Source: Candidatus Hydrogenedentota bacterium
Lineage (GTDB): Bacteria; UBA8481; J006
Length of the DNA: 37,043 nt
NCBI GenBank assembly: GCA_003697085.1
Contig: RFFU01000011.1
Coordinates: 1-37,043 of the forward strand
Direction of reading: 5' to 3'
A program made the position numbers and the translations under genes. Numbering within the stretch: the stretch's first letter is position 1; every line of letters begins with the position of its first letter. This document shows positions 12,440 to 22,281 of the stretch, one piece after another. The notes under the pieces are model-generated. The model worked only from the letters and a program-made list of their open reading frames with translations. It was not told where the DNA came from and searched no databases.

Positions 12440-13384
12440 TCAGAGCCCCCCCATCGTCCGGAAGACCTTCAAACCAATCGGCCCGAGCGTGACAATAAAG
12501 ATCGTCGGAAAGATGAAGAAGATCATCGGAAAGAGCATCTTGATCGGCAGTTTTTGCGCCATCTCCTCGACCATCTGGCGCCGCTTCGTTCGGAGTTGAT
12601 CCGACTGAATCCGCAGGATCTGGCCGATCGAGACGCCCAAAGCATCCGCCTGAATGACGGCGGAAATGAGCGTATCGAGTTCGGAAACCTGGCATCGCGC
12701 CGACATCGACTTCAACGCGTCCTTTCGCGCCTTCCCGATCTTCACCTCCTGAAGCATACGGTCAAACTCTTCCGGCAAGGGCCCCTCCATCCGCTCGACG
12801 ACTTTTTGTAACGCTTGGTCAAACCCGAGCCCGGCCTCGACGGAGACCGTCAAAAGATCCAACATATCCGGCAGCTGCTTGCGCATCTTTTTGCGGCGGA
12901 CGGTCACCTGACGCGCCAGCCAGAATTGCGGGGCCACGAATGACATCCCGGCCGCTACAGCCATAAAAATGATTCCGAAGAGAAAGGGAAGTATGCCGAT
13001 GAGCGTGAGAAACCCCATAAGCGAAACCGAAAGCATGGCCGCGAGAAGTTTGAGCGCTTTGAACTGTCCCGATGTCAGGTTCCCGGGGTTGCCCGCTTGA
13101 ATCAACAACGTCGCCACCGGATCCTCCTTTGAACCCGACTTCTTGAACTTGCCGGCCATCCGTTCCAAAATCGGTTGAATGACGCGTTCGAAGAACGGCT
13201 TCTCCAGTTGCTCCTCCTCAAAGGACCCGGCCAAAGCCTTCTTCTGCTCTTCCTTTCCGAAATTCTTCAACTCCAGGAGCCGCTCCCGGGCCACGTCGCG
13301 CTTCGCACCCTTGACCATATACACGGCCAGTCCGATCCCCGCCAGGATCAGTACCGTGATGATCGCGACGATCAGCCCCAGCAT
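12440..13384 (-). CDS. tadC: Tad inner-membrane platform protein TadC
   Basis: The 314-residue protein is a type II secretion F-domain (T2SSF) protein. It has an N-terminal membrane segment (about 3-23), a cytoplasmic region, a hydrophobic pair (about 110-155), the F-domain with RKKMRKQLPDMLDLLTVSVEAGLGFDQALQKV, and a closing membrane segment ending in KVFRTMGGL. TadB and TadC together form the inner-membrane platform on which the TadA ATPase works during pilus assembly. It starts 31 bases after tadB, in the usual tadA-tadB-tadC order apart from the inserted small gene. Confidence 0.93.
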   Translation of the reverse strand: MLGLIVAIITVLILAGIGLAVYMVKGAKRDVARERLLELKNFGKEEQKKALAGSFEEEQLEKPFFERVIQPILERMAGKFKKSGSKEDPVATLLIQAGNPGNLTSGQFKALKLLAAMLSVSLMGFLTLIGILPFLFGIIFMAVAAGMSFVAPQFWLARQVTVRRKKMRKQLPDMLDLLTVSVEAGLGFDQALQKVVERMEGPLPEEFDRMLQEVKIGKARKDALKSMSARCQVSELDTLISAVIQADALGVSIGQILRIQSDQLRTKRRQMVEEMAQKLPIKMLFPMIFFIFPTIFIVTLGPIGLKVFRTMGGL

Positions 13385-13415
13385 CGCACGCGCTCCCCTT
13401 CCTCGTTCCCCCCGG

Positions 13416-14429
13416 TCACAACTCCACCTTCAACATATTTATAATCACAAACGCCCCCAAGGACTGCATAATCAAACCGATGATGATCAAGACCCATCCC
13501 AATTTGTCCTTGAAAAGCATTCCCATGACATCGGGATTGAGAAGATACATGATCCCAAAAAGACCGAAGGGCAGTCCCGTGATCACCATTCCCCCCATCT
13601 TTCCCTGTGCCGTCAATGCGTTGATTGTTCCGATCAATTTGATCCGTTCCCGAATCGTCGCGGCAATATTGTCGAGGATTTCAGCGAGGTTTCCTCCGAT
13701 CTGCCGCTGGATCAATACGACGGTGACGGTGAGGTTGAAGTCCTCCGATTCGAGCCGCTGGGCCATCGCCTCCATCGCCTCGTCTATCGGGAGCCCCAAC
13801 TGATTCTCCTTGATCAAACGCTGGAATTCCTCGTTCGTAGGATAGGGCGCTTCCCGGGAAACCATCTCGACCGCCTGAAGAAAGGAATAACCGGCCTTGA
13901 GAGAATTTGAGATCAGCCCCAGAGTATCCACCAACTGGTCCTGGAACGCCTTCTGGCGAGCCTTCTTCTTCATACTGACGACCAAGGAAGGGATCCAGAA
14001 GCCTAATAGACCACAAGGAATCGCCGCCAAAAGCGGATTGTCCCAAAGGATCTTCCCCAACGCGAACCCGAAAAAGAAACTGAAAACCGCTACGCCCAAC
14101 ATCAGCGTTAGATACTCGCTTGCCCGCCATTTCATTCCCGCCTGCGCCAAGCGCAACGCCAGCGATTGGCGATATCCTTCGAAAAGAACAACCCGCTCCA
14201 AGATGCTTCCGACTTTCGAAAGCAGAGTGGGTTCCTTCTCTTTTTGGAGCCCCATCGCCTCTTGCTGAGCTTCCAACTCTTCCAACTTCTGAAAGTACTC
14301 CCGATCAATATAGGGAGCCAACGTGCTCGTCAGCCGGTTTTCTTCCTCCCCCCGCCGAATCTTCCTTACCAGAAGTAGCATAACAATGACACAAACCAGG
14401 AGAAAGAGCACGGCGATCAGGATCTTCAC
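13416..14429 (-). CDS. tadB: Tad inner-membrane platform protein TadB
   Basis: The 337-residue protein has an N-terminal membrane segment (about 2-21), a paired hydrophobic region (about 107-147), the F-domain core QDQLVDTLGLISNSLKAGYSFLQAVEMVSREAP and IQRQIGGNLAEILDNIAATIRERIKLIGTI, and two C-terminal membrane segments. This is the TadB partner of TadC. The start is GTG at 14429, preceded by a long GGAGGAGAGGAGG run that lies inside the end of the upstream small gene, and it overlaps that gene's stop as GTGA, so translation is probably coupled. Confidence 0.93.
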   Translation of the reverse strand: MKILIAVLFLLVCVIVMLLLVRKIRRGEEENRLTSTLAPYIDREYFQKLEELEAQQEAMGLQKEKEPTLLSKVGSILERVVLFEGYRQSLALRLAQAGMKWRASEYLTLMLGVAVFSFFFGFALGKILWDNPLLAAIPCGLLGFWIPSLVVSMKKKARQKAFQDQLVDTLGLISNSLKAGYSFLQAVEMVSREAPYPTNEEFQRLIKENQLGLPIDEAMEAMAQRLESEDFNLTVTVVLIQRQIGGNLAEILDNIAATIRERIKLIGTINALTAQGKMGGMVITGLPFGLFGIMYLLNPDVMGMLFKDKLGWVLIIIGLIMQSLGAFVIINMLKVEL

Positions 14430-14647
14430 TCTCTTTCCTCCTCTCCTCCCGCACTTCCTTCCGGACAGGTTGAACGTCCCTCTTTGTCGGGAACGGATCT
14501 GGACTCCTGACTTCTCACCAAGAAATTCATCTCCCCTTCTTTCACCATTTTATCATACTTTTCGGCTTCCCGTGCCTCCACCCGTACTGAAAAATCGTCG
14601 TCGTGGTAAAGAGTCCCGGTCCCTTCGGCCCCCCGTCCCTCGCCCAT
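14426..14647 (-). CDS. Small unknown protein between tadA and tadB (73 residues)
   Basis: I do not recognise this protein. The frame runs from an ATG that shares one base with the tadA stop (TGATG) to a TGA that overlaps the tadB GTG start (GTGA), so both junctions are tightly coupled. It exactly fills the 217 bases that would otherwise be a gap in a tightly packed operon. The product is hydrophilic, with no membrane segment. It has a charged central part (TLYHDDDFSVRV, EAREAEKYDKMVKEGEMNFLV) and a low-complexity Ser/Gly/Glu tail. The tail may exist mainly because the DNA there forms the tadB ribosome site. A role in regulating or bridging TadA and TadB is a guess from position. Confidence 0.65.
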   Translation of the reverse strand: MGEGRGAEGTGTLYHDDDFSVRVEAREAEKYDKMVKEGEMNFLVRSQESRSVPDKEGRSTCPEGSAGGEEERE

Positions 14648-16128
14648 CAGTGCCCCGCTTTCGCCTCCGAGAAGTCGATCGGAGCATCCGGCGCCGTCAG
14701 GCGCTCCACAAGGTCCGGCTTGCGCCGGATTTCCTCCTTCAAGTTCTCCTCGACCCATTCCTTCGCTTCTTCCGGGGTATATCCGAAAATCGTCAGAGGA
14801 ATAATGATACCGTTTCGGAGATACTGCTTGTAAAAGGTCGGGATATGATGGCACGGTTGATGAGAACCGATGATCTTCCCGTCATCATCGACGCCCGTTT
14901 GAACAAATCGGAAGATATCGGCCATCTGGACCTCGTTTCCATCGAATCCAAGACTCTGCGTTACGTAGGTTATCTTCCTCGAACCATCGGGAAGCCGTGT
15001 CTGCTGAACGATCAGGTGAATCGCGGACCCCATCTGCTCTCGAATCGCCCGGGATGGAAGATCGACCCCGGACATCAAGACCATCGTCTCGATACGCCGC
15101 ATCGCGTCCGACGGTGTATTAGCATGGAGCGTTGTGAGAGAGCCGTCATGTCCCGTGTTCATCGCCTGAAGCATGTCCAGCGTCTCTCCGCCACGACACT
15201 CCCCGACGATGACACGATCGGGACGCATACGCAACGTGTTTCGGATGAGATCCCTCATCGTGACGGCGCCTTTCCCCTCGACATTGGCCGCCTTCGTCTC
15301 CAGACGCACCCAGTGTGGCTGAAGAATCTGAATCTCCGCCGCATCCTCGACGGTACAAATCCGCTCCCCCGGATCGATAAATGAGGAGAGGGCGTTCAAG
15401 AGAGTCGTCTTTCCCGAACCGGTTCCTCCGGAGACGACGATGTTCTTCGCGATCATCACGCTGGCTCGGAGGAAATCCGCGATCGTCTGCGTCAGTGCTC
15501 CAAACCGGATCAAATCCGGCACGCGCAACGGATTTTTCTTGAATTTCCGGATCGTGATCGTCGAACCATTCAGCGCCAGCGGCGGGATCACGGCGTTGAC
15601 ACGGGAACCGTCCTTGAGACGAGCGTCCACATAAGGCATCGATTCATCACACCGGCGCCCCAGCGGCGAAATAATCTTGTTGATAACCGCCCGGACGGCC
15701 TCGTCATCCTTGAATTTCACGTCCGTCAAAACCAGCTTCCCCCCGCGTTCCACGTACACCTGATTCGGACCGTTTACCATAATTTCCGAGATTTCCTCAT
15801 CGTCGACCAACGGCTGGATGGGGCCCAAGCCGAGGATGTCATCGAGGAGTTCCTTGATGACCTCTTCGTGTTCCCGTTTCGTCAGAGTGATTCCGGCCTC
15901 ACCACCGACAATAGCGATGTTCTCCTCGATGCGCGCCCGTAACAGACTTCGCTTGATTTCCGGATCCGGTTGCGCCAGGATCGAAGCATCCAACTCGTTG
16001 ATGAGTTTGTTCTGGACACGCTTCTTCAACTGGTCGCGCGGAGTGATCTCGACCTTTGCGGCCGCACCGGCGGCTCCCGGCTTGGCCGACTTCTTCTTCA
16101 TCGATTCCAAGCGTTCTAACAGCGACAT
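14647..16128 (-). CDS. tadA: Tad pilus assembly/secretion ATPase TadA (CpaF)
   Basis: The 493-residue protein is a PilT/VirB11-type secretion ATPase of the CpaF/TadA family. It has an N-terminal domain with GLGPIQPLVDDEEISEIMVNGP, the Walker A loop GGTGSGKT (234-241), the Asp box region TVEDAAEIQI, Walker B VIVGECRGGE and the His box LTTLHANTPSDAMRRIE. The C-terminal tail (about 385-493) is longer than in many CpaF proteins. It powers pilus subunit assembly with TadB and TadC. The ATG at 16128 gives the familiar MSLLERL start, but no Shine-Dalgarno is visible. The 145-base gap before it is the largest inside the operon and could hold an internal promoter (TAAAAT 7 bases before the ATG). Confidence 0.96.
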   Translation of the reverse strand: MSLLERLESMKKKSAKPGAAGAAAKVEITPRDQLKKRVQNKLINELDASILAQPDPEIKRSLLRARIEENIAIVGGEAGITLTKREHEEVIKELLDDILGLGPIQPLVDDEEISEIMVNGPNQVYVERGGKLVLTDVKFKDDEAVRAVINKIISPLGRRCDESMPYVDARLKDGSRVNAVIPPLALNGSTITIRKFKKNPLRVPDLIRFGALTQTIADFLRASVMIAKNIVVSGGTGSGKTTLLNALSSFIDPGERICTVEDAAEIQILQPHWVRLETKAANVEGKGAVTMRDLIRNTLRMRPDRVIVGECRGGETLDMLQAMNTGHDGSLTTLHANTPSDAMRRIETMVLMSGVDLPSRAIREQMGSAIHLIVQQTRLPDGSRKITYVTQSLGFDGNEVQMADIFRFVQTGVDDDGKIIGSHQPCHHIPTFYKQYLRNGIIIPLTIFGYTPEEAKEWVEENLKEEIRRKPDLVERLTAPDAPIDFSEAKAGH

Positions 16129-16273
16129 AGCAGTATTTTAGGAGAGTTTCTTCTCATTTCCAGAAAAAAAGAGAGGCGATCCCTTCTTATCCCCAAAACA
16201 AGCAAATCACCGGACCCACCCTTTCCCGCGACAGCGCGGACGGGCTCAATCTCCCCCGGTGCCGGATTACCCC

Positions 16274-17542
16274 CTATTTCTTCTTTCCAAAAAGGCCCAT
16301 CAAGCCGCCCTTCTTCTTCGGTGCTTCCCCCTCACCGGCCGCCTCTTCGATCATCTCCGCCTCCTCGCCCGCAACGATCTTGACGATCTCGCGGATCGAT
16401 TCCGCGATCTTCGAGTCGGGACTCCGCAAATAGAAGGGCTCACACTCGTTCACCGAAGGCATCACCACGGCTCCTTCCGAAGGAATCGTCGCGATCACCT
16501 CGGCCTCCAGCGTCTCCTCGATCTCCTTCTTCTTAAAGGCTCCCGTGGTCGCCTCACGGTTCATAATAACCTTCACCTTCTCCTCCGTGTATCCGAAGGT
16601 TTGCATAATCTCCATCATCAACTTCCCATCCTTGATCGTCGGCAACTCCATCGTCAAGAGAAGAAGGATCTGGTCGGCCAACTCCAGTGCGGTGAGGACG
16701 GTGTCCGAAAGATAGGAAGGCGTGTCAATGACGATGTAATGAAATTTTTCTTTCAGCTGACGTAGAATTTGATCCACGTGATTTCCCTTCACCAAATCCG
16801 CCTCGTCGGGACGAATCGGCGCACAAAGCACGGAAACCCCGCTTTCTTCGTGCGTCACAAGATGCCCCATCAAGATTTCCGGGTCCAATTCACCCGCGTC
16901 GGCGATCTCGCGGGCCAAGGCAGAGATCGTCACCTTCGTCGGCAAATGCATCATAATGGCGATATCGCCGAATTGGAGGTCGAGATCGACCAAACAGACC
17001 TTCTTGCCGGTCATCTTCTTCAAAGCCACGGCCAGATTGATGGCCAGAAGTGTCCGTCCGACTCCCCCCTTCGTCGAGAAGATCGTGATCATCTTCGATT
17101 CGACGACTTCTTCTTCCTTTGTTCCGATGATCGCCGCCATCGCCTCGCGCTTCTTTTCCGCAATCTCGGCGACCAAACGAACCACCGCCACAAGATCGGA
17201 AGCATCGTAGGGTTTCGGAAGCACCTGGCGGACCCCGCTGAGCATCGCCTTTCGCATAAAGAGGTTGTCCGCACCTTCCTCGGCCACCATCACGATATCG
17301 CTCTTGGGCGCCTGCACCGATATCTGCTCCGCGGCCAGCAAACCGTCCGGCTGATCCCCGCCCAGCTTTGCGTCCATCACGATGACCGTGGGAGCCTTCT
17401 CCTTGGCCATCTTCAAGGCTTCCTCGGCGTTGTCCGTTTCCCCGACGACTTCGAGATCCTGTTCAACAAGAAAGGCTTTCTTCAGATTGACGCGCTCTTC
17501 GACTTCACCTGAAACAAGGAGAATGGTGATCGCGGCCGCCAT
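16274..17542 (-). CDS. tadZ: TadZ/CpaE: receiver-like domain fused to MinD-type ATPase
   Basis: The 422-residue protein has an N-terminal receiver-like domain (about 5-125) and a MinD/ParA-type ATPase domain (about 150-370), the layout of CpaE/TadZ proteins that place the Tad machine at the pole. The receiver keeps D57 and K110, but the acidic pair is replaced (VSGEVEE) and the switch Thr is Ala (IVMVAEEG), so phosphorylation is doubtful. The deviant Walker A is KGGVGRT (158-164): the signature lysine is kept but the P-loop lysine is Arg, a change also known in other TadZ proteins. The tail is acidic, then lysine-rich (GLMGLFGKKK). It starts 3 bases after the secretin stop. Confidence 0.93.
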   Translation of the reverse strand: MAAAITILLVSGEVEERVNLKKAFLVEQDLEVVGETDNAEEALKMAKEKAPTVIVMDAKLGGDQPDGLLAAEQISVQAPKSDIVMVAEEGADNLFMRKAMLSGVRQVLPKPYDASDLVAVVRLVAEIAEKKREAMAAIIGTKEEEVVESKMITIFSTKGGVGRTLLAINLAVALKKMTGKKVCLVDLDLQFGDIAIMMHLPTKVTISALAREIADAGELDPEILMGHLVTHEESGVSVLCAPIRPDEADLVKGNHVDQILRQLKEKFHYIVIDTPSYLSDTVLTALELADQILLLLTMELPTIKDGKLMMEIMQTFGYTEEKVKVIMNREATTGAFKKKEIEETLEAEVIATIPSEGAVVMPSVNECEPFYLRSPDSKIAESIREIVKIVAGEEAEMIEEAAGEGEAPKKKGGLMGLFGKKK

Positions 17543-17545
17543 GAT

Positions 17546-20500
17546 TCAGGAGGCGTCTGCGTTGGAGGATCCGGACGGCGTGAGCGGCTTCGTATAGGGG
17601 GAGGGATTCGGAATGGACCGCCGCGGCGGCGCGACCTCCGTCTCCATCGCGCTCAAGGTCCCGTCCGCCGGCACGACACGCGCCGTCAGAAAGATCAACA
17701 GTTCAACCGTTTCGTCCGTCTCCTTCTTCGAGCGAAAGAGATGGCCGATGATCGGCAACGAACCCAGAATCGGTATTTTGTCCTCGTTCACGTGCTTCTC
17801 CTTCGTCTGAAGACCACCGATCACCAACGGAAGGCCTGAACGGACCATAACCCGCGTCTGGGAATTCTGCTCGCCGATCACGTTGATGATCGCTTCGTTT
17901 CCCGCCGCGGCCGAACCAAAGGTCAAGGTCTCCAGCACCTTCGAGACGACCGCCTCGAGGTCCAGCGTGATCATGCCGTCCTCGCCGATCGTGGGGGTGA
18001 CGTCCAGCGTGATCCCGACCTCCTTTTCCGTCGTTTCCGTCGAAAAGGTAACCTGACCCAACGAATCCACAAAGCGGTTCGTGTAAACATCATAGACACG
18101 CTTGATATTCTGAAGCCGTGCCGATTTGTTGTTCAAAGTCATCACCCGCGGAGAAGAAAGGACGGTCACATCGCCGTTGGATTCCAGGGCCGAAATCAGC
18201 ATGTCCACGTTCGTGTAACGAAGCCCTCCGAAACTAAAGCCACTGCCGCCCAACATCCCCAGAAGCAAACCGGCGTTTCCGCTGACGTTGAATGTCTGGT
18301 TCCGCCCCGTCTGAATCTCCGGCTCGGGTTGCCCGGAAACCGTTCGGGAATTCGTCGTCCCAAAACCCGCAAACGGCTTGTTTCCGGCATTCGACTGAGA
18401 TGAAAAAGCCCACTGGACGCCGAGTTGATTCAAGAGACTCCTGTCAATCTCCACGAATTTCGCTTCGATCAAAACCTGTTTCGTCGTCTCGCGGTCCAAA
18501 TCGTGCACAAACTTGATGATCTCGGTGATCTTCTTCAACCGGTCGCGCACAATCAGACTGTTGCTGGCGGCGTCCAGGCTGAGATTGGCCGAGGTCGTAT
18601 CCGTTGACTCCTCGGTGGTGAAGGATATATCCGCTCCCAAAGAGGAATAGAAGACCTGCTGGACCAACGGAAGAATCTCGGAAACGTTTCGCGAAACAAC
18701 CTTGACGATCTTCGTCACGAGTTCGTCCTGCCCTTCATCGTTGACTTCAACAACGACTCCGCGGATCATCTTGATCGTCTGTCCCGGATACCGGTAGGTC
18801 CAGATCGCCGTTCCGGCCTTGTTGAACTCCACCGTCGTAAAACTCGGCGGGGTCCCTTTGTAGATTCGGGTCACATCCGACATCGTCATTCCCGGAACCA
18901 CGATTCCCTCTTTCAGTAAGCGTTGTTGCTCCTCTCGAGGAAGACGCACATACATATTCCCCAAGGCGCTGGGCATTACGTCCCCGGAGACAATCACCGA
19001 AGCCTCGGCGGAGGGAACAAACCCCTCGAGACGATCCCGGATGAAATACGCCTCGCCGGAAGGAAACTTGTACCGCGCCTCCTTTTCCTCGTACTCCCGC
19101 CCCGCCTCCGGAACGGGTATGAGTTCTCCCTTTTCCCCCAAAACATCCTCGAGTTGTTTCAATGTCAGCCCCCAAATCACCATCCTGTTCCTCTTCGCCG
19201 CCTCGAGATCTTTCTCCTTCGGCAATGTGAGGATCTGATAGAGCTGATCGTTACGGAAACGCAGGAGAACATTGGGGTATTCATATTCCCAGAGGAGTCC
19301 CGAAGATGAGTTGATGGAACGAGGCGGTCTGAGCGCCTTGGTTCCCAACGCCGCCTCGACTTGTGCGAGAGTCATTCCCGTCACCAAACCGCCGTTCTGG
19401 ATCGTGCGTTCTATATCGTCGTTGGAAAGACCGACGAAGTTCTGCGAGAGATAACTGGTGAGAACATCGAGTATCCCCGGCGGGCCGATCATCACGACCG
19501 TGTTCGCGTTCACGTTGTCCACGACAAAGAACCAGGGCGGACGATCCGGAGGAGACCAGGGCCAGACATACTTGACAAGAAGCCGATCCGCCAACGTCTG
19601 CAAGCCATCCACGATCTTTTTGCGCGTCTGGTCATCCACAAACGTTCCCAAATGGACCAGAACAATCTCCTTCGACATCACAACATCGCCGGACGTCCTG
19701 TCCTTGCCCGTGCCGTCAATGTATTTCGTACGCATAATCGATATCCCGTTGTCGTAACGAGGAGCATCGATCAAACGCATCAACTGGTCGATCGTGGCGA
19801 CGGCCGAGGGAATATCCTTGACGACAACAAGGCGAAGATACTCCTGAGTGACAATCGTGCCCTGCTCCGTAAGGAAATGGCGCACGAGTGGAATGACCTC
19901 CTGCGCCTCCGCGTACCGCAAACGATACACCTTCGTCTGTATCGTGTCCCCGCTCGATGAGGTCCCTTCCAGCGTGACGTTTTCGATCTCACGATTCGTT
20001 TTTGGAGAAACATAAGTCGAGATATCCGTGACGCGCCCGTTGGTCAGCGTAATGACTCCGTCACGGTAATGGTACTCCTCGATCTTGTGTGTCTGGCCGC
20101 TTTCGTCCTTCTCGATCCGAACCTCCGGAGGTACCGCCGGTTCCCCCTTGGCCTGAATCATCTCGTCCCGGGTCATTTCACGAAGAACCTGTCCCTTCTT
20201 GATCGCATCTTCGATCGTCTCGGCATCGATCGATCTCTGATTAATCTCCGCCACGATGTCATCGACGAGTGTCACGGAAAGATCGCGGTAAAAGAGCCGT
20301 TCGACCTTGGCCATCCGGCCGTTCTTCTGCTCCATCATATCCAGGATCGGTTCTTCCAAAGGCTCACCCAACGCCGCGATGACATCCTCCCGCGTCATGC
20401 CGCGGAGAACGATATGGCGCGATATCGCCTCTTGGGCCGTGGCGCGATCGAGACGGTTCAACTGTTTCGCGACATCGATGAGTTCCATTCGATTCTCGAT

Positions 20501-21085
20501 CTTGATTCCAGCGGCGCGCAGAGTCTCGAGTTGAAGTTCAACATATTGGGCGTTCTTCATCACCCCGTACAGAACCACCTTGTCCGGCTCCACGTCCATC
20601 CGCGTGACACCGTCCGGAAAGGCCTTTTCGTCGTTGTTCTCGATCACCACCACGCGATAGACATAGCGTTTCTTCCCAGACCAAACGTAAAGATGAGATT
20701 GGCCGATATTGATAATTCCGTCGCCCTCGCGAGCCACTTCCGGGCGGCCCTGAACGAGAACCTCGGTGGGGGAAACGACGTTGGCGATGATGGCTCGCGG
20801 ATTTCCCACGGCGACACGCGTAAGGTTCGGCACCGATACGACGAAGGAATTGTTCGTCGCGACATAAACGTCCGGGATTCCGGGCGATTTTTCCTTCTCG
20901 GAAGTCTGCGCTTCCTTCGAAGGCGACTTTTCCGCGGAAGCGGTAGCCCTCGCGGACGCGGTTGCATCCGACGCTTTCGTCGGTACGGTATCCGCCGCTT
21001 CTCCGGCGATCAATGTCATAAGAAGCAGAAGGCCCGACAGGGCGAACCGGAATAATGAGCGGTTTTCAAAGAGCGTTCGTCGCAT
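17546..21085 (-). CDS. cpaC: Very large Tad secretin (CpaC/RcpA) with five BamE/SmpA-like modules
   Basis: The 1,179-residue outer-membrane secretin is about twice the usual CpaC length. In order: signal peptide (1-30, ending near GEA); Ala/Ser/Lys linker (31-68); pilus-secretin N-terminal domain (78-150); BON-like segment (160-203); modules 1 and 2 (218-283, 293-357); a secretin N domain (382-443); a second N-like segment (470-555); modules 3, 4 and 5 (557-620, 627-691, 720-782); an N domain (788-864); and the C-terminal secretin barrel (868-1140) with VTVLSSPRVMTLNN and VRSGLPLVIGGLQT. Modules share the pattern GMT...(V/L)...LG.P, an aromatic W.Y or Y.Y, then a strand and V..I, like BamE/SmpA. 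The ATG at 21085 shares a base with the cpaB stop (TGATG). Confidence 0.93.
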   Translation of the reverse strand: MRRTLFENRSLFRFALSGLLLLMTLIAGEAADTVPTKASDATASARATASAEKSPSKEAQTSEKEKSPGIPDVYVATNNSFVVSVPNLTRVAVGNPRAIIANVVSPTEVLVQGRPEVAREGDGIINIGQSHLYVWSGKKRYVYRVVVIENNDEKAFPDGVTRMDVEPDKVVLYGVMKNAQYVELQLETLRAAGIKIENRMELIDVAKQLNRLDRATAQEAISRHIVLRGMTREDVIAALGEPLEEPILDMMEQKNGRMAKVERLFYRDLSVTLVDDIVAEINQRSIDAETIEDAIKKGQVLREMTRDEMIQAKGEPAVPPEVRIEKDESGQTHKIEEYHYRDGVITLTNGRVTDISTYVSPKTNREIENVTLEGTSSSGDTIQTKVYRLRYAEAQEVIPLVRHFLTEQGTIVTQEYLRLVVVKDIPSAVATIDQLMRLIDAPRYDNGISIMRTKYIDGTGKDRTSGDVVMSKEIVLVHLGTFVDDQTRKKIVDGLQTLADRLLVKYVWPWSPPDRPPWFFVVDNVNANTVVMIGPPGILDVLTSYLSQNFVGLSNDDIERTIQNGGLVTGMTLAQVEAALGTKALRPPRSINSSSGLLWEYEYPNVLLRFRNDQLYQILTLPKEKDLEAAKRNRMVIWGLTLKQLEDVLGEKGELIPVPEAGREYEEKEARYKFPSGEAYFIRDRLEGFVPSAEASVIVSGDVMPSALGNMYVRLPREEQQRLLKEGIVVPGMTMSDVTRIYKGTPPSFTTVEFNKAGTAIWTYRYPGQTIKMIRGVVVEVNDEGQDELVTKIVKVVSRNVSEILPLVQQVFYSSLGADISFTTEESTDTTSANLSLDAASNSLIVRDRLKKITEIIKFVHDLDRETTKQVLIEAKFVEIDRSLLNQLGVQWAFSSQSNAGNKPFAGFGTTNSRTVSGQPEPEIQTGRNQTFNVSGNAGLLLGMLGGSGFSFGGLRYTNVDMLISALESNGDVTVLSSPRVMTLNNKSARLQNIKRVYDVYTNRFVDSLGQVTFSTETTEKEVGITLDVTPTIGEDGMITLDLEAVVSKVLETLTFGSAAAGNEAIINVIGEQNSQTRVMVRSGLPLVIGGLQTKEKHVNEDKIPILGSLPIIGHLFRSKKETDETVELLIFLTARVVPADGTLSAMETEVAPPRRSIPNPSPYTKPLTPSGSSNADAS

Positions 21086-22281
21086 CAACGGTTGCCTCCA
21101 AAGAAGAGATCGAAGAGGCCCGGAGTCCGTTTTTTCGGCTCCGGGGAAGAAGTGACCCGGAGCGTCGTGTCGTAAGAAGGCCTGGGAATCTCGGCGCCGG
21201 CCGCCCATCCCTTGTCCTCGTCGTCCAGAGTCGTTTGATTTTCATAACTCGGAACGACACCGTCGATCCTCGGCAACCCGCGCCGTTGCGCCCCGTCCGG
21301 CTCGAACCTCACAACCGCACTGTGCACGCCTCCCACGTATACCTCGACCGTCCGCGCTTCATTCAATAATGTCCTGTTGAAAACACTCTCTTCCGTCGTG
21401 CCGGGCGTGCGGGCCAAGACATCGTTCACCGGCGCACGCAAGGCCATATGGAGGGTCGCGCCGCCGTAATTCTCCGCCCAGACGAGCCGTTCCGCCTCAT
21501 GAGGATAGACCGCCAGTGTGACTCCCGAGGGGGGAGGAAGTTCCGCTGCCGTGGTATCATTCGGCTCCGGAGGCATAAACATCTGACCAATCGCTACCAC
21601 GCGCGCGTTCTGAATAATCGTCTTGGCATAATCCATCGTCCCGCCTTCGCGACGATTGATGCTGAATCTTCCGATGATATCAACCAAATCTCCCAGTTCG
21701 ATGAGCCCGGTTACCGCCGATAACTCGTCATAACGGATCGAGACCGCCCGCTTATATTTCGGAACAAGATAGGACAACTGCGGCCGCCCCGTGTAAATCA
21801 TCGCGTCCAAAATAAAATCGTTCTGTTTGATATCCACCGCGCTGATATGACCGAGGACGCGGTCCTTTTCGGACTCGAGGATGGCGGCTTCCGGCGCCGC
21901 TCCGACCGCAGGCACCTCCTTAATCAGAATCAGATCGTCCTTCAGAAGCGTGTTCGCCGGAATGTCCGTCCGTGCAACCAAGACCTTCTTGTGTGAACCG
22001 GGATACCGCGTCGGGTCGTTCGGATCGGTTCCCGCGGCCTGCTCATCCAAATCCGGATAGCCGTCGTTGTCGGAATCCACTTGCGCCGCCTGCCGCGCCA
22101 ACTCCTCCTCCGACGGCCCCGTCTTTCGAAAAAGGAAGAAATAAGCCGCTACCGAACCGATGACCAAAACAACAATCACAACGGCGGCTATGATTAAAAT
22201 TCGTGGATCCACTTGGCCGGCCGTCCGGTTTTCCTCTCGTCCTCCCCGGCCGACGAACTTCCTTCGCATCATTATCCCCAT
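21085..22281 (-). CDS. cpaB: Pilus assembly protein CpaB/RcpC with TSP3-like calcium motif
   Basis: The 398-residue protein has one membrane segment (about 28-50), then a thrombospondin-type-3-like motif DSDNDGYPDLDE (69-80) followed by GTDPNDPTRYP, then a SAF domain (about 99-165, VARTDIPANTLLKDDL) and the RcpC/CpaB domain (RAVSIRYDELSAVTGLIELGDLVDIIGRF onward). CpaB is a periplasmic component of the Tad machine thought to work with the secretin. The calcium-type motif between the membrane segment and the SAF domain is not a usual part of CpaB. Three in-frame ATGs lie within the first five codons (22281, 22272, 22269); the first is used here. It begins 5 bases after the TadE/G-like gene. Confidence 0.93.
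   Translation of the reverse strand: MGIMMRRKFVGRGGREENRTAGQVDPRILIIAAVVIVVLVIGSVAAYFFLFRKTGPSEEELARQAAQVDSDNDGYPDLDEQAAGTDPNDPTRYPGSHKKVLVARTDIPANTLLKDDLILIKEVPAVGAAPEAAILESEKDRVLGHISAVDIKQNDFILDAMIYTGRPQLSYLVPKYKRAVSIRYDELSAVTGLIELGDLVDIIGRFSINRREGGTMDYAKTIIQNARVVAIGQMFMPPEPNDTTAAELPPPSGVTLAVYPHEAERLVWAENYGGATLHMALRAPVNDVLARTPGTTEESVFNRTLLNEARTVEVYVGGVHSAVVRFEPDGAQRRGLPRIDGVVPSYENQTTLDDEDKGWAAGAEIPRPSYDTTLRVTSSPEPKKRTPGLFDLFFGGNR
22000..22077 (-). other. TSP3-like calcium-binding motif inside CpaB
   Basis: The segment encodes a D.D.DG..D..E loop followed by GTDPNDP, the classic pattern of thrombospondin type 3 repeats, at residues 69-94 of CpaB. It sits in the periplasmic linker just outside the membrane, where calcium is available. 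A single repeat is present. Confidence 0.8.

Follow-up and report, generated by a model that had tools for sequence, protein, structure and literature searches.

A Tad secretin encoded in a 3.2 Mb Candidatus Hydrogenedentota genome carries five repeated modules among its N domains. Judging from sequence profiles and structure prediction, their fold is that of the BLIP/BamE superfamily, with a topology closer to BLIP; for modules M1 and M2 the assignment comes from a confident model, and for M3 to M5 from sequence together with predicted secondary structure. We see an even chance that the five modules, along with two extra N domains, lengthen the periplasmic part of the secretin and act as spacers for reach. 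Descriptions of secretin periplasmic parts draw on few domain types (N0-N3, AMIN and VirB9-like), and a secretin in which a different envelope fold occurs five times would indicate that the vestibule can be made from other parts. Such a protein would also be a natural test of whether fused BamE-type domains aid the assembly of oligomeric outer-membrane proteins. We regard it as a probable variant of the known Tad secretin, and the roles discussed for its modules are proposed ones.

The secretin gene, its operon and its domains

The gene occupies positions 17546-21085, minus strand, of the 37,043-nucleotide stretch analysed here (the window), and encodes a CpaC/RcpA-type protein of 1,179 amino acids from the ATG at 21085. 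Pfam places it well above the cut-off for Secretin (PF00263, E 6.8e-39, 133.6 bits versus 27.5) and also finds Secretin_N (E 3e-15). Its Tad operon neighbours, identified by Pfam, are RcpC/CpaB, a CpaE-like REC+ParA protein, T2SSE and two T2SSF proteins. The operon runs in the order TadE/G-like protein, CpaB/RcpC, secretin, CpaE, CpaF, TadB, TadC, where the first reading frame, which has no Pfam match, is one that we take to be TadE/G-like. CpaB carries a TSP3-type repeat close to its N-terminal membrane helix (window 21085-22281, minus strand), as does its counterpart in the relative introduced below. TSP3-type repeats usually bind calcium. Outside the operon, on the plus strand at 803-1279, the window has a gene for a small TPR protein carrying a lipobox-like signal, which could be a pilotin or a BamD-like protein.

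The only other genome of the phylum among those searched, Ca. Hydrogenedentes bacterium CG07_land_8_20_14_0_80_42_17 (the relative), belongs to a second family and encodes a secretin that is 38% identical and contains all five modules in the same order. Its locus likewise runs CpaB, secretin, CpaE-like gene, and the three reading frames that follow have sizes fitting CpaF, TadB and TadC. The features of the window locus are as follows.

21085..22281, minus strand: CpaB/RcpC, Tad alignment-complex protein (Pfam RcpC E 4e-20, SAF E 1.5e-6)
17546..21085, minus strand: Tad (CpaC/RcpA-type) secretin, 1,179 amino acids (Pfam Secretin and Secretin_N, operon context, relative)
20636..20887, minus strand: pil_N/VirB9-like N domain, residues 67-150, presumed CpaB/RcpC-binding end, 66% identical in the relative (Pfam, relative)
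20225..20449, minus strand: module M1, BLIP/BamE-like, residues 213-287 (48.7 bits leave-one-out; Pfam BamE E 7e-4; AlphaFold2 M1-M2 pLDDT 88)
20009..20230, minus strand: module M2, BLIP/BamE-like, residues 286-359 (40.9 bits leave-one-out; AlphaFold2 helix-helix-four strands)
19757..19939, minus strand: N-a, secretin N domain (Secretin_N), residues 383-443 (Pfam, hhalign)
19430..19750, minus strand: N-b, probable second N domain, residues ~446-552 (low-confidence full-length model alone)
19211..19429, minus strand: module M3, BLIP/BamE-like, residues 553-625 (38.7 bits leave-one-out; helix-helix-four strands in the low-confidence model)
18989..19222, minus strand: module M4, BLIP/BamE-like, the most diverged, residues 622-699 (19.3 bits leave-one-out; helix-helix-four strands in the low-confidence model)
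18725..18943, minus strand: module M5, BLIP/BamE-like, residues 715-787 (27.3 bits leave-one-out; helix-helix-four strands in the low-confidence model)
18488..18718, minus strand: N3 domain, residues 790-866 (sequence comparison; strand-helix-strand-strand-helix in the low-confidence model)
17651..18487, minus strand: secretin barrel, residues 867-1145, 56% identical in the relative (Pfam, relative)
12440..17542, minus strand: CpaE, CpaF, TadB and TadC, remainder of the Tad operon (Pfam)

The modules form two clusters, M1-M2 and M3-M5, placed between the pil_N/VirB9-like domain, two N domains and N3. The match to T2SS-T3SS_pil_N (PF13629, E 0.0018, 18.4 bits) falls below its cut-off of 23, as it does in the relative's secretin, and the location of the domain and its 66% conservation agree with the assignment as a VirB9-like N domain. 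Residues 151-212, which have no Pfam match, look by eye like a degenerate BON domain of the kind found in some CpaC proteins, and we presume them to be one. In the low-confidence full-length model, N-b consists of a strand, a helix (485-501), three strands and a second helix (536-549), and the linkers joining adjacent elements are mostly 3-12 residues long, with ~25 between M4 and M5.

The locus resembles those of RcpA/CpaC in Pseudomonas and Caulobacter in its operon context, barrel and probable VirB9-like N domain, and N3 is present in CpaC and other homologues (PMC10499894, PMC13170226). In contrast, BLIP/BamE modules are undescribed there, and the 20-residue linker between the N domain and secretin domain of P. 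aeruginosa RcpA (PMC10499894) compares with ~720 residues in the window protein.

Fold and history of the repeated modules

The five repeats are real. Scored with profiles that omit the position tested, the window modules gave 19.3-48.7 bits, while 1000 shuffles of each reached at most 8 bits; the relative's modules gave 10.2-37.6 bits, again unequalled by any shuffle. A profile made from the relative's five modules alone recovers each module of the window protein at its known location, and the window modules recover those of the relative in turn. The original prediction had described the reading frame, its length and five repeated segments as we find them, and the module limits have since been refined; the shared GMT opening that it proposed is less uniform, being present in M1, M3 and M5 and replaced by EMT in M2 and GLT in M4. 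M3 and M5 each find their best cross-species match at their own position, and M4 has diverged too far for its counterpart to be placed. Since M1 and M2 of the window are mutually most alike (score 114, versus 85 for the best cross-species pair), their sequences suggest a later duplication or gene conversion.

The modules had been called BamE/SmpA-like, and this stands at the level of the superfamily, on the evidence of profiles, hhalign and AlphaFold2, while membership in the BamE family does not; the topology is nearer to BLIP. The best Pfam BamE (PF04355) match, to M1, lies below the cut-off (E 7e-4, 19.7 bits versus 23.2, 18 of 71 positions), as does that to the relative's module 2; both span only ~20 positions of the opening helix, and a PF04355 search of the genomes returned nothing above the cut-off. 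The modules are thus outside the BamE family on two counts, scoring below the gathering cut-off and lying inside a secretin without cysteine rather than forming a separate lipoprotein of the BAM complex. What they share with BamE/SmpA-OmlA is the GMT..QV...LG opening and the general fold.

When the module profile was compared with all PDB sequences, nine BLIP sequences came first (best E 0.0033) and BamE after them (E 0.08 to 0.19), separated by a single unrelated reductase. Against the same profile, E. coli BamE, its letters verified against the PDB, obtained an hhalign score of 30.4, compared with 17.4 for the best of 300 shuffles and 8.5 for the reversed sequence. We take this comparison as the independent test of the fold because a further hhalign result of 97.5% is partly circular, five of the six rows in that alignment having been found with the module profile.

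AlphaFold2 modelled M1-M2 from six sequences with a mean pLDDT of 88.1 and a pTM of 0.68, and each module consists of two helices followed by four strands, which is the BLIP topology. The sheet under the helix-loop-helix has four strands in BLIP and three in BamE. The full-length model, built from two sequences, has a mean pLDDT of only 37.7, so we used its secondary structure alone and read no ring geometry from it; all five modules appear there as helix-helix-four strands, and N3 (790-866) as strand-helix-strand-strand-helix.

These results bear on whether the modules could be strongly diverged ordinary secretin N domains, which they resemble in length and among which they are located. We find that hardly credible: hhalign gives a 0.4% probability of similarity to N domains, as opposed to the score to E. 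coli BamE that exceeds all 300 shuffles, and helix-helix-four strands is found in all five modules in place of strand-helix-strand-strand-helix. Neither a lack of SmpA/BamE similarity nor an ordinary secretin N-domain fold, the two outcomes that the original prediction had set against itself, was observed.

In a structure comparison of the M1-M2 model with VIA-align, the best matches included BamE (7txx; Z 6.0, rmsd 2.9, 53 aligned), E. coli BamE (5.2), BLIP-type proteins (5.5 and 5.2) and OsmE (5.3). All of these lie below Z 8, and with values this modest the weight rests on their agreement with the sequence profiles. Foldseek against the PDB was uninformative (galectins first at E about 0.1, none below 0.001), leaving VIA-align and the sequence profiles to carry the fold claim. 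BLIP itself consists of tandem domains of ~76 residues, each a helix-loop-helix on a four-stranded antiparallel sheet, joined by a three-residue linker (PMC8363833), and the window modules, whose profile finds it as the best PDB match, are likewise in tandem with 3-5 residue linkers. It differs in being a secreted inhibitor and perhaps in how its two units are arranged, as 3d4e aligns over both M1-M2 units only at rmsd 9.6. The 74-residue spacing had suggested a rigid BLIP-like M1-M2 didomain; with 3d4e the sole two-unit match, we do not claim one.

Proposed roles of the modules

The chain runs from a VirB9-like N domain through a possibly BON-like stretch, M1-M2, N-a, N-b and M3-M4-M5 to N3 and the barrel. 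If the modules are spacers, they would be compact structural elements that make the periplasmic vestibule taller or give it more outer wall. The pilus tunnel would probably be longer through them, and the lengthened vestibule would let the conserved N-terminal end reach the CpaB ring at the inner membrane with the barrel in the outer membrane. Both the stacking of the modules in or on the ring and reach as its purpose are what we infer. Identity between the two species is 18-38% over residues 151-866, compared with 66% in pil_N and 56% in the barrel, and a fast-diverging middle between conserved ends is what a structural extension would show, which favours a spacer that lengthens the vestibule. 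The modules themselves (26-38% identical) diverge near the rate of the adjacent N domains, as expected of structural elements and not of a fixed binding site.

On the other hand, BLIP and BamE are protein-binding folds and could equally point to a binding role, which counts against spacers, and we know of no ring built of BLIP folds. Known systems speak for a spacer. In P. aeruginosa, the RcpA N domain binds RcpC, whose ring lies in the periplasm and is anchored to the inner membrane (PMC12307814), and in Thermus thermophilus PilQ stacked added N domains form a long periplasmic tube, with six rings in all (PMC5745081). PilQ is, however, expanded mainly by the usual strand-helix-strand-strand-helix N domains and not by BLIP/BamE modules.

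The main rival to a spacer is a peripheral binding platform, in which modules projecting from the ring would hold a peptidoglycan-bound protein, a lipoprotein or a neighbouring subunit and so do the work proposed for CpaD or CpaI in Caulobacter. We consider this possible though not probable. BLIP works by binding protein (PMC8363833), and the structural matches include TpgA, through its N-terminal domain complexed with the membrane domain of an adhesin (9vnj, Z 4.3); TpgA binds that adhesin and also peptidoglycan (PMC8151025). Against this, the modules are not specially conserved, their identity being close to that of their N-domain neighbours. A search of both Hydrogenedentes genomes found no CpaD above the cut-off, which is weak evidence for a substitute since other Tad systems also lack CpaD (PMC13170226).

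A minor rival, and one of the two roles originally proposed, is a built-in pilotin or assembly element, with modules helping their own secretin to reach or enter the outer membrane. BamE is an established outer-membrane assembly factor and none of the Tad operon genes could be recognised as a pilotin, yet several observations make such a role distinctly unlikely. TadD, the pilotin known from Tad systems, is a TPR lipoprotein and folds differently (PMC10499894); the secretin has no cysteine anywhere, and hence no lipidation cysteine; modules are absent from the other secretins of both genomes; and elsewhere the window encodes the TPR protein mentioned above, with its lipobox-like signal (803-1279). 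Extra rings, the other original proposal, or a vestibule spacer fit the data better. The modules might also be ring-building or self-chaperoning elements, in which case secretins would have another type of ring domain besides the N domain, or the protein would unite an assembly factor with its client; this strikes us as rather doubtful.

Distribution and other secretins of the lineage

The architecture is represented by two sequences. Of 386 genomes, just the two Hydrogenedentes ones had several modules in one reading frame, and no third was found with the module profile, whose limited sensitivity may let distant cases escape; matches elsewhere were single, and those inspected were mostly exported proteins or lipoproteins. 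The single-module exported proteins share the 'AIxxGxIxxGMT' opening, including the preceding helix, and differ in having one copy that is not within a secretin. Examples of such a lone BamE/BLIP-like module, with an 'AIxxGxIxxGMTxxQV'-type opening, occur in varied exported proteins of other genomes (L070, L071, L072, L073, L074). We found no description of secretins with BamE, SmpA or OmlA domains among open-access papers, in keeping with the earlier remark that the architecture was unfamiliar.

With the module profile, the other secretins of both Hydrogenedentes genomes contained no modules. Long periplasmic parts recur in the lineage, as the same genome encodes a 2,779-amino-acid secretin whose N region is much enlarged (L031:1880-10219, contig C88, minus strand; barrel at 2137-2298). 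Pfam recognises seven Secretin_N stretches in it, and more are likely present; at its C-terminus are four helix-hairpin-helix units resembling ComEA or T2SS protein K, a layout matched by a secretin of the relative (L034:3116-7684). Another secretin of the same genome, of 1,542 amino acids (L032:4922-9550, contig C106, plus strand), extends ~800 residues past its barrel in what look like repeated Ig-like domains.
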